A stretch of DNA of 34,484 nt from a virus. A program made the translations under genes and the position numbers. The stretch spans positions 1 through 34,484 of IMG/VR virus record IMGVR_UViG_3300046804_003266; one strand, 5' to 3'. The notes under the pieces were generated by a model, which was given only the letters and a program-made list of their open reading frames with translations, searched no databases and was not told the DNA's origin. This document shows positions 4,577 through 34,176 of this stretch, piece by piece (position 1 is the stretch's first letter; each line of letters begins with the position of its first letter).

Positions 4577-5170
4577 ATGGTATTAAAAAAAATCGAATGG
4601 TCTTGGGAATATGGAAAGGTTTATTATAAGATCTTTCATGAGCAATATGAAGAATCGTTTTCATCTCCTAAACCACCACCAACAAAACCATCACATGATA
4701 TAAGTCATTTCATTTGTGGATTTATTCCAAATATGGAATGGAACTTTAAAATAATGCCTAATGATATTGCCGAATATAATGCAGTATACATTGAAAACAT
4801 TTTAAATCTTTTTTCAGTTCATTATTATAATAATAAAGATTTTGATATTAGAGAACATTGTGAACATGTTAGAAATCATATGAAGTGGTTTTCTGATGAT
4901 TATTATAGAATAAAAGTTTTTCATCCAAGTAAAAAGACTTCTATTGATCTTGAAGCAGATTTTTTTGAACAGGTAGACTTTAAAATTGTTTGTAAATTTT
5001 TTAGATCTTACTACAAAGTATGGATACTTGAAAAACACTTGGATCCTTCAAACATTAAAATTTCTATCACGATGGATAATGGGGTTGACTACGAGTTTGA
5101 TTTGCTGTATGATTATCTTAACAAATTTAAAGAACTTGTCTCCGAATCTAATGGAAAAGTTTACTGTTGA
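4577..5170 (+). CDS. Uncharacterised protein (197 aa)
   Basis: The protein is soluble, with no signal peptide or membrane span, and rich in aromatic residues (Tyr, Phe, Trp). A short Pro-rich turn (SPKPPPTKPSHD) sits at residues 30-41. The middle contains many His and Tyr (EHCEHVRNHMKWFSDDYY). No motif ties it to a known enzyme. It starts 10 bases after tRNA-Pro without an evident ribosome site and overlaps the next gene, a Phd/YefM-like antitoxin, by 20 bases. It does not look like a known toxin, but the coupling makes a functional pair possible. Confidence 0.65.
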   Translation: MVLKKIEWSWEYGKVYYKIFHEQYEESFSSPKPPPTKPSHDISHFICGFIPNMEWNFKIMPNDIAEYNAVYIENILNLFSVHYYNNKDFDIREHCEHVRNHMKWFSDDYYRIKVFHPSKKTSIDLEADFFEQVDFKIVCKFFRSYYKVWILEKHLDPSNIKISITMDNGVDYEFDLLYDYLNKFKELVSESNGKVYC

Positions 5171-5366
5171 AGAGTTTCAAAAGGATTTTGATAACCTTAT
5201 TTCTAGAGTAGAAAATGGAGAAACATTTATTATAACTAGTGAACATGGAAACGCAGTTATAGTTCCTTACAAAGAAGTTATAGAAGTATTTGAAGATAAT
5301 AAAATAAAAAGTAAAGTGGATGAGGAAGTCATACGAATCCACACTGACCACGAAGAAGCTTCGTGA
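5151..5366 (+). CDS. Phd/YefM-family antitoxin-like protein (71 aa)
   Basis: The sequence EFQKDFDNLISRVENGETFIITSEHGNAVIVPYKEV follows the Phd/YefM pattern: a helix, then an ENGE turn, an FIITS strand and a GNAVIVP strand. These proteins bind operator DNA with the N-terminal domain and neutralise a toxin with the C-terminal tail. ATG at 5151 lies inside the end of the upstream gene; a longer frame from 4986 is a shadow of that gene. No recognisable toxin is adjacent, so it may be an orphan that counters host toxin-antitoxin systems or acts as a repressor. Confidence 0.7.
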   Translation: MEKFTVEEFQKDFDNLISRVENGETFIITSEHGNAVIVPYKEVIEVFEDNKIKSKVDEEVIRIHTDHEEAS

Positions 5367-5546: not shown

Positions 5547-5575
5547 TTGACTTCTAAAAGTCAAAACCTTATAAT
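5547..5575 (+). promoter_or_regulatory. Strong sigma70-type promoter with the -35 box in an inverted repeat
   Basis: TTGACT (5547-5552), a 17-base spacer and a perfect TATAAT (5570-5575). TTGACTT pairs with AAGTCAA immediately downstream. A second hairpin GGACAG/CTGTCC (about 5524-5543) precedes it. It drives the gene at 5598 and shows that an upstream TTG at 5547 is not a real start. Confidence 0.85.
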
Positions 5576-5597
5576 AACAAGGTCAACATTCAAATCA

Positions 5598-5810
5598 ATG
5601 ACTCTAACTGCTAAATTCAAGAAAGACGTTCAAACCCTTCGTGGTGCCGCAAATGGTGATTTCTACCTTGATGTAAAGAATCCGAAACTCTACAAAAAGG
5701 TTCGTCGGTACTATGAGAACGAAGGTGTAGTGTTCTCTGGTGATCCCCTGGATGATTATGAAATGCTAATGGAATATGTCGCTGGTGATCTTGAGTCTGT
5801 TGAAGCATGA
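5598..5810 (+). CDS. Small soluble protein, unknown function (70 aa)
   Basis: ATG at 5598 is 23 bases after the -10 box of a strong promoter. The protein starts MTLTAKFKKDVQTLRGAANG with a basic N-terminal half (KLYKKVRRYY) and an acidic C-terminal half (DPLDDYEMLMEYVAGDLESVEA). Soluble, alpha/beta. The early-type promoter suggests expression soon after infection. It overlaps the next gene by 4 bases. I recall similar cyanomyovirus proteins without function. Confidence 0.75.
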   Translation: MTLTAKFKKDVQTLRGAANGDFYLDVKNPKLYKKVRRYYENEGVVFSGDPLDDYEMLMEYVAGDLESVEA

Positions 5811-6061
5811 CTAAGGTTCTCTTGGAAAGAGAAGGATATCGCTTTATTGAAGCGGGTATTCTTGAGATCAACGGTAAACCCGATTACCGTATGCAAAAAC
5901 AAAATGAATATACCAAACGTTGGAACGATATCTATCTTTTTGATAATGTTCTTCAATGTTCTACAGCAATGGAAGACATTGAATATGCAAAATGGTTGGA
6001 TCCAGATAGAGTACCTTGTTATGTGAAAGATGATGATTTTGAAGACATGGAGAGTCTTTAA
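5807..6061 (+). CDS. Small soluble protein, unknown function (84 aa)
   Basis: It is translationally coupled to the gene before it (ATGA overlap). The protein is soluble with mixed charge and an acidic end (KDDDFEDMESL). The central part (KPDYRMQKQNEYTKRWNDIYLFDNVLQC) is rich in Tyr, Asn and Gln. No recognised family. It immediately precedes a structured RNA whose transcription it may share. Confidence 0.7.
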   Translation: MTKVLLEREGYRFIEAGILEINGKPDYRMQKQNEYTKRWNDIYLFDNVLQCSTAMEDIEYAKWLDPDRVPCYVKDDDFEDMESL

Positions 6062-6240
6062 AAACCCTGGTCGGGAGTAACCCCCCTTAGTCACGGAGAG
6101 ACTTAAAAAGAACTGGTGGAGTCAAAATGACCCCTTATGGTTTCTTGCTTTTCCATCAAAAAGCAAGTGGTGCGGATGGGACTCTCTCCCGCCTGGTTTC
6201 CAATTTCCAGTCAAAGAATTGGTGGCGAGCCTGAGTTACC
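6062..6240 (+). ncRNA. Structured RNA with pseudoknot, candidate wcaG-type element
   Basis: An outer stem pairs AAACC (6062-6066) with GGTTT (6195-6199) and CGGGAG (6072-6077) with CTCCCG (6186-6191). Inside is a 9-bp hairpin (CTTGCTTTT 6144-6152, AAAAGCAAG 6159-6167) whose loop CCATC (6153-6157) can pair with GATGG (6175-6179), a pseudoknot. GGAGAGA (6095-6101) can pair with TCTCTCC (6183-6189), excluding the CGGGAG helix, as a switch would. CCAATT/AATTGG (6200-6205, 6217-6222) follows, then a terminator. The wcaG RNA motif is known upstream of sugar-epimerase or hli genes in cyanophages; the next gene is such an epimerase. The class assignment is inferred from context, not from a covariance match. 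Confidence 0.6.
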
Positions 6241-6243
6241 GAA

Positions 6244-6270
6244 GGTGGGTTGCATAAACCCACCTTTTTT
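6244..6270 (+). terminator. Strong rho-independent terminator
   Basis: GGTGGGTT (6244-6251) pairs perfectly with AACCCACC (6257-6264) around a 5-base loop, then six T. It either ends the upstream unit or serves as the expression platform of the structured RNA before it. The -35 box of the next promoter is in its loop. Confidence 0.9.
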
Positions 6271-6278
6271 AGTATAAT
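6250..6278 (+). promoter_or_regulatory. Promoter of the glycan gene cluster, embedded in the terminator
   Basis: TTGCAT (6250-6255) lies in the terminator hairpin, then 17 bases including the T-tract, then a perfect TATAAT (6273-6278). Predicted initiation is near 6285, leaving a 5' leader of about 20 bases before the epimerase ATG at 6305. Transcripts from here would lack the structured RNA. Confidence 0.75.
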
Positions 6279-6304: not shown

Positions 6305-7354
6305 ATGAGTCAATACACTAAAACAGCACTTGTTCTTGGTGCTGGTGGCTTTATTGGAAGTCATATGGTAAAAAGACTGCGAGCAGAGGGATATTGGGTT
6401 CGCGGTGTAGATCTTAAGCGTCCAGAATTTTCTTCTACTGAGGCGCATGAATTTATTCAAGGAGACTTGAGAGACTTGAGATTCGTTGAGCGGTGTATTC
6501 GGTTCACTGGTTATCTTGGCAATTTCTATCATCAAATTGTAGATAGGTTTGCCGAACCGTTTGATGAGATCTATCAGTTTGCTGCTGATATGGGTGGTGC
6601 AGGATTTGTTTTCAGTGGAGAGAACGATGCTGATATCATGCACAACTCAGTCACCATTAATCTGAATGTTCTTGAAGCACAACGTCAACTAAATGATTTA
6701 AAAGAAGTAAACAAAACTAAGATTTTCTATTCTGGATCTGCGTGTATGTATCCAGAACATAATCAATTAGATCCTGATAATCCTGATTGTCGTGAAGAAT
6801 CTGCATATCCAGCTAATCCAGACTCTGAGTACGGTTGGGAAAAACTGTTCTCAGAACGCCTCTACTTTGCTTATCATCGCAACTATAATATTCCTGTACG
6901 TGTTACTCGATACCATAATATATTCGGACCAGAAGGAACCTGGGAAGGTGGAAGGGAGAAAGCACCAGCAGCAATCTGTCGTAAAGTAGCATATCTTCCA
7001 GAAGAAGGAGGTACTATTGATGTTTGGGGAGATGGTAAACAGACTCGTTCATTCCTTTATATTGATGAGTGCATTGAAGCATCTAGAAGATTGATGGATT
7101 CTGATTTTATTGGACCAGTGAATATTGGGTCTGAAGAAATGGTTACTATCAACCAACTTGTAGAAACTGCTGCAAAAGTTTCTGGTAAGGAGGTTAAAAA
7201 GAATCATATTGATGGACCTCTTGGTGTTCGTGGACGTAACTCAAACAATGATGTGATCCGCAGAGAACTTGGTTGGGACTATCAACAATCTCTTGAAGAA
7301 GGTATTCGCAAAACATACGCTTGGATTTCTGAACAAATTAATAATTCAAAATAA
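6305..7354 (+). CDS. GDP-mannose 3,5-epimerase (extended SDR family)
   Basis: The 349-aa protein has the NAD-binding GAGGFIGS loop (residues 12-19) and catalytic residues spaced as in plant GDP-mannose 3,5-epimerase: Cys147 (SGSACMYP), Tyr176 and Lys180 (YGWEK), and Lys219 (GGREKAP). FAADMGGAGF and GDGKQTRSFLYIDEC are also typical. The enzyme converts GDP-D-mannose to GDP-L-galactose (and GDP-L-gulose). It opens the glycan cluster behind a strong promoter. Its product could feed the fucosyltransferase-like (GT11) enzymes downstream, since L-galactose is L-fucose with a 6-hydroxyl. The substrate call is firm at family level; the final sugar is inferred. Confidence 0.88.
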   Translation: MSQYTKTALVLGAGGFIGSHMVKRLRAEGYWVRGVDLKRPEFSSTEAHEFIQGDLRDLRFVERCIRFTGYLGNFYHQIVDRFAEPFDEIYQFAADMGGAGFVFSGENDADIMHNSVTINLNVLEAQRQLNDLKEVNKTKIFYSGSACMYPEHNQLDPDNPDCREESAYPANPDSEYGWEKLFSERLYFAYHRNYNIPVRVTRYHNIFGPEGTWEGGREKAPAAICRKVAYLPEEGGTIDVWGDGKQTRSFLYIDECIEASRRLMDSDFIGPVNIGSEEMVTINQLVETAAKVSGKEVKKNHIDGPLGVRGRNSNNDVIRRELGWDYQQSLEEGIRKTYAWISEQINNSK

Positions 7355-34030: not shown

Positions 34031-34089
34031 GGTAAACAAATGTTACGAATTTCTCATAATTCTTAACATTGTCGAACACCCGCTAACCG

Positions 34090-34176
34090 AGACCTATGGG
34101 TGTATAAATCACGTCTCTCATACCCACAGTGGAGGGTGCTGTGGGGAATAATCGTAACAGTTCGTCCCCCCGAACT
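34090..34176 (+). ncRNA. Structured psbA 5' leader, candidate PhotoRC-II-type element
   Basis: GAGAC (34090-34093 and adjoining base) can pair with GTCTC at 34113-34117. CCCACAG (34123-34129) pairs perfectly with CTGTGGG (34139-34145). AGTTCG (34159-34164) pairs with CGAACT (34171-34176), and the G-run of the first can meet the C-run in the loop of the last. PhotoRC motifs are known 5' elements of reaction-centre genes in marine cyanobacteria and their phages; assignment here rests on position and general structure, not on a covariance search. Confidence 0.5.

Follow-up and report, generated by a model that had tools for sequence, protein, structure and literature searches.

The window analysed here is a 34,484-nt contig of a T4-like cyanophage, with nine tRNA matches in the Rfam search and a glycan gene cluster that starts at 6305. 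The first gene of this cluster encodes an NAD-dependent nucleotide-sugar epimerase/dehydratase (6305-7354; all features of the window given here with coordinates are on the + strand). Upstream of it lie two small ORFs, one of unknown function (5598-5810, PHROG 552) and one 'gp206-like' of 84 aa (5807-6061, PHROG 481), preceded by a likely promoter predicted at 5547-5575 (TTGACT-17-TATAAT, 11/12). An orphan Phd-like antitoxin gene (5151-5366, PHROG 375) is found just upstream of the small-gene unit, and Phd-like genes recur near wcaG in several wcaG-bearing isolates. PADLOC detected no defence genes among the neighbours in the window. A PhotoRC-II RNA, expected near cyanophage psbA, is present at 34064-34159 (82.5 bits).

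Between the small ORFs and the epimerase gene, the covariance model of the wcaG RNA (RF01761) matches positions 6136-6236 over its full length (model positions 1-98) and scores 100.2 bits, the gathering threshold being 42 (E 2.6e-18), which settles the family membership proposed by the earlier note. The contig also has the cyanophage or marine phage origin expected of a wcaG RNA, its nearest isolates being Synechococcus phages such as DSL-LC03. The wcaG motif is known without an assigned function (PMC2864571, PMC9602691, PMC9964418); Weinberg et al. (2010) cautiously proposed it as a possible riboswitch (PMC2864571), and the open papers we searched contain no published function. For comparison we used 120 IMG/VR stretches with the wcaG core pattern and 22 annotated isolates. 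None of 292 cyanobacterial genomes encodes a detectable wcaG, although this is weak evidence of absence, since 14 control genomes likewise gave nothing. The single match among GTDB contigs (L148) comes from a MAG labelled Rhodobacteraceae, but the genes of the contig match phage families, and it is probably a misbinned cyanophage. Other structured RNAs were seen on wcaG-bearing contigs: a cyanobacterial-type tmRNA in one (L108, 5114-5383, - strand, 131.6 bits), and wcaG, manA and abiF RNAs within ~800 nt of a tRNA cluster in S-CREM1 (L125, 2598-3420).

Covariation among relatives indicates that wcaG is composed of two tandem H-type pseudoknots, both of which are absent from the nested Rfam structure. 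In the first, A1 (6137-6170), AUGG at 6137-6140 pairs with CCAU at 6153-6156, and the second stem joins CUUGCUU (6144-6150) to AAGCAAG (6161-6167), followed by UGG. The 9-bp hairpin described in the earlier note (6144-6152/6159-6167) is thus present, but its loop pairs with the four bases 5' of UUU, that is, with the 5' flank. The downstream partner suggested previously for the loop CCAUC (6153-6157), GAUGG at 6175-6179, is complementary in the window; in relatives, however, GGAUGG is near-invariant while the loop varies between CCAU, CCUA, CUCA and CUU, and we reject this pairing because the partner does not follow the changes of the loop. Contiguous Watson-Crick pairing of the A1 loop with its 5' flank averages 2.97 in 65 distinct units, compared with a mean of 2.21 and a maximum of 2.72 in 3000 shuffles (p<=3.3e-4). 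The compensating switches include GG:CC, GAG:CUC and AAG:CUU, with GAG:CUC observed in 13/13 cases. A short hairpin of the Rfam consensus structure, P2 (UGGGA/UCCCG, 6177-6191), separates the two pseudoknots and is kept in relatives as GGGA/UCCC, GGAG/CUCC or GGGG/CCCC. The second pseudoknot, A2 (6193-6227), pairs CUGG (6193-6196) with CCAG (6207-6210) and CCAAUU (6200-6205) with AAUUGG (6217-6222), and ends in GUGGCG. A perfect 4-bp stem is formed in 52 of 57 distinct A2 units, whereas shuffled sets contain 21 on average and at most 33, and five compensating stem types occur: CUGG/CCAG, CCUG/CAGG, CCAG/CUGG, CAGG/CCUG and CGAG/CUCG. A third unit built in the same way, class C, is present in some phages; its stems are GUUG/CAAC, GCUG/CAGU and GAUG/CAUC. 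Weaker second wcaG matches directly before the first one, seen in two contigs (L082, 214-308; L110, 472-566), are further tandem pseudoknot units. The single-sequence minimum free energy of the whole interval is modestly special (z -1.77).

Comparison of the sequences upstream of wcaG further indicates that wcaG is the 3' part of a larger pseudoknot array with the order B1-B2-A1-A2. The two class B copies in the window are reported by no Rfam family in the Rfam search. The class B design consists of an AGUC/GACU hairpin whose loop has 7 nt, then an A-rich segment, and finally a tail that terminates in UGGU[CG]G and base-pairs with the loop. B1 (6042-6073) has its first stem at 6042-6046/6054-6058 and a second stem including U6048-A6064, and encloses the stop codon of the 84-aa ORF (6059-6061). 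B2 (6088-6119) repeats this arrangement, with 6088-6092/6100-6104 and a second stem including C6094-G6110. Our class B covariance model, R1, gives strong scores to exactly these two copies in the window (42.4 and 41.1 bits, respectively). The pairing between loop and tail is backed by covariation: base 2 of the loop (p2) and tail base q4 form a Watson-Crick pair in 201 of 203 distinct units (C-G in 164, U-A in 37), as do loop base 5 (p5) and q5 in 98/102. In an alignment of 45 units, helix 2 is paired in 100% of cells with both-side changes in both pairs, and the covariation score of the whole structure reaches 0.346, against 0.127 for shuffled and <=0.069 for slid alignments. Class B and wcaG belong together, as class B is present in 22/22 wcaG phage genomes and wcaG in turn is found on 14 of 15 contigs selected solely by class B; genes can nevertheless be inserted between the two. 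The phage genomes contain one or two strong class B copies each, mostly at the wcaG locus, and these whole-genome counts rule out a many-copy dispersed repeat. A linker hairpin, GGAGUC-AAAAU-GACCCC (6118-6134), joins B2 to wcaG. The ORF that starts at its AUG (6127-6234) is accidental; a coding reading of this 35-aa ORF across wcaG was rejected, as ORFs from the same AUG run from 3 to 76 codons in relatives.

Downstream, the array is followed by an intrinsic terminator at 6241-6271, an 11-bp stem with a GCAUA loop and a U run (-17.5 kcal/mol, z -5.9). The strong terminator noticed previously is real as a predicted structure, and it ranks first among the 12 terminator-like sites of the first 16 kb. 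The -35-like box TTGCAT (6250-6255), located in its loop and stem, precedes a perfect TATAAT (6273-6278) by 17 nt, and the predicted transcription start is at ~6285. Placement of the -35 box of the next promoter in the terminator, as the earlier note had it, also recurs in relatives; a consensus scan does not list TTGCAT, since the box is weak and matches 3/6 positions. A clean terminator is found in 70 of 97 distinct downstream flanks, and the hairpin of 65 of these 70 includes a -35-like hexamer (TTGCAT, TTTACA or TTGACA), which is almost always separated from the -10 box by 17 nt. A looser search recovers a T-run and -10 box after wcaG in 102/146 distinct flanks, with 8 nt between the start of the T-run and the -10 box in 94 of them; these counts show conservation rather than independent origins, as related loci are not independent. 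Approximately 30% of the flanks have no terminator-promoter at this distance. Elsewhere in the same contigs we count 38 such composites among roughly 460 terminators, the subtraction being approximate. The fused promoter, if used, would start the epimerase mRNA at ~6285, ~50 nt past wcaG, with a leader of ~20 nt that excludes wcaG. As the predicted start lies after wcaG, the RNA is probably outside the message of the sugar gene, contrary to the previous assumption.

At its other end the array is anchored to the upstream gene. In 242 of the 270 cases in which class B comes first in the array, its start is no more than 30 nt away from a CDS stop or the 3' end of a tRNA, compared with 98 of 521 control positions; where the upstream feature is a CDS, 208/241 class B starts fall between ~20 nt before and 10 nt after its end, and B1 of the window overlaps the upstream stop. 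For the largest gene classes among the loci selected by wcaG, the array begins ~0-20 nt past the stop of the upstream gene. The downstream genes are more diverse: sugar-nucleotide enzymes are the most frequent, and hli genes, tRNAs, tail-fibre-like genes and cupins also occur. A position before a WcaG-type epimerase, emphasized earlier, is correct for the window but incomplete as a description of the family. As for the 5' UTR placement of wcaG before exopolysaccharide or high-light genes, the epimerase is the next gene in the window, but a predicted promoter intervenes between it and wcaG. Not every array has this layout. The third unit comes first in some arrays, and other arrays are found directly before an ATG or a tRNA, where they would sit in the leader. 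In S-RIM44 a consensus-like promoter lies just upstream of the B unit, so that the array represents the 5' end there. A 3'-end location is thus not universal, as the arrays next to an ATG or a tRNA and the one in S-RIM44 demonstrate, and the array could also bind a protein or act in trans.

Since the array of the window starts at a stop codon and ends at a terminator, it most likely serves as the structured 3' terminus of the small-gene transcript upstream. Our preferred reading, at about even confidence, is that the array is a structured 3'-end or intercistronic element of the upstream small-gene unit and not a leader riboswitch of the epimerase gene. The promoter at 5547-5575 could start a small-gene transcript spanning ~5582-6271 with the array at its end, while in other phages the array would be an intercistronic module with small genes, tRNAs and metabolic genes on either side. 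The stacked pseudoknots would most probably fix and shield the end of the upstream RNA by means of RNase resistance, protein binding to the conserved UGGYG tails, or both. The terminator would then stop the upstream transcript, and the promoter embedded in it would restart transcription for the glycan operon. Of this picture, the anatomy is established by the comparisons, and the use of the promoters, the location at a 3' end and the protective or binding function are inferences. The single-stranded parts of the array are highly conserved, which suggests specific recognition, beyond the needs of passive protection.

The alternative favoured by the earlier note, a metabolite-sensing riboswitch controlling terminator read-through into the glycan operon, appears rather unlikely, although the conserved pseudoknots with U-rich and A-rich loops, the strong conservation of unpaired bases, the frequent sugar-nucleotide gene downstream and the published suggestion of a possible riboswitch (PMC2864571) all speak for it. 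The earlier note described two mutually exclusive helices sharing 6183-6191. The alternative involving GGAGAGA at 6095-6101 is not conserved, and the corresponding strings do not co-occur across loci (3/16 versus 33/93, Fisher p=0.25). A riboswitch acting as a transcription attenuator has an alternative antiterminator pairing linked to its aptamer, and no such co-varying pairing was found: the terminator arms are no more complementary to their own array (7.05 bp) than swapped arms (7.09 bp), so no antiterminator is visible, and the terminator stems vary freely while A2 hardly changes. With the pseudoknot partner also wrong, metabolite-switched attenuation of read-through is without support. 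A promoter inside or after the terminator, and arrays that precede tRNAs, hli and tail-fibre-like genes, likewise argue against this reading.

Protein binding by itself could also explain the array. T4 gene 32, with its operator pseudoknot, provides a precedent, and each unit of the array ends in UGG[UC][GC]G. Where a B unit stops 10-19 nt short of a start codon, its GG..CCCC linker often contains a GGGAG Shine-Dalgarno-like stretch, so that a phage or host RNA-binding protein might regulate translation of the adjacent small genes through the RBS in the B-unit linker. However, we identified no candidate protein, and the tRNA-adjacent arrays have no RBS to control; we regard such a platform as unlikely. 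An RNA antitoxin-like decoy is a very doubtful explanation, even though the array shares its anatomy, tandem ~35-nt H-type pseudoknots followed by a Rho-independent terminator, with the Type III antitoxin RNAs (ToxI, AntiQ, CptI) and the pseudo-ToxI locus of phage PhiTE (PMC5086642, PMC3475682), and the orphan Phd-like gene is a neighbour. Type III RNAs are identical short repeats with a toxin gene behind them, whereas A1, A2, B and C have different sequences and stems, the gene downstream is an epimerase, and there is no toxin gene nearby. No ToxN-family match exceeded the cut-off in 194 cyanobacterial genomes, and the lack of wcaG in the cyanobacterial genomes, shared by the controls, points the same way. 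The likeness to Type III arrays is anatomical only. By analogy with them one may still speculate, as a quite improbable extension, that each wcaG cyanophage makes one modular RNA of tandem B, A and C pseudoknots, which would come off the 3' end of a small-gene transcript and serve as a trans-acting decoy or sponge of a host protein that binds or cleaves RNA.

Among other known elements, bacterial REP sequences are intergenic repeats that, similarly to the array, place structured RNA just past stop codons between co-directional genes. The array differs from them in occupying one locus per phage, in consisting of pseudoknots instead of palindromes, and in having a defined set of units. The manA RNA motif (RF01745) is likewise a cyanophage RNA without a known function and stands beside wcaG in the S-CREM1 tRNA cluster, but it corresponds to a different model and has no match in the window. 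With respect to wcaG as listed in Rfam (PMC2864571), the RNA described here agrees in its full-length model match, cyanophage origin and position upstream of a sugar-nucleotide epimerase. It differs in forming the 3' portion of a longer array, where another, unlisted pseudoknot module precedes it, and in the terminator fused to the promoter of the downstream gene, which usually separates the RNA from that gene. While the wcaG family is known, its extended architecture and position appear to be new. Neither the class B module, nor its co-occurrence with wcaG, nor the conserved fusion of terminator and promoter is described in the open papers searched, and we believe the module and the fusion to be new parts; the A1 and A2 pseudoknots may already be drawn in the supplement of the 2010 paper.

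Since 2010, wcaG has been listed as an orphan candidate riboswitch for exopolysaccharide and high-light genes. Our results redirect the search towards a modular pseudoknot array that includes a companion module not described before and is tied to the upstream gene; the gene downstream usually has a predicted promoter of its own, located past the RNA. Attention thereby shifts to transcript ends, protein partners and RNase resistance, and exact base pairs are now given for mutation.
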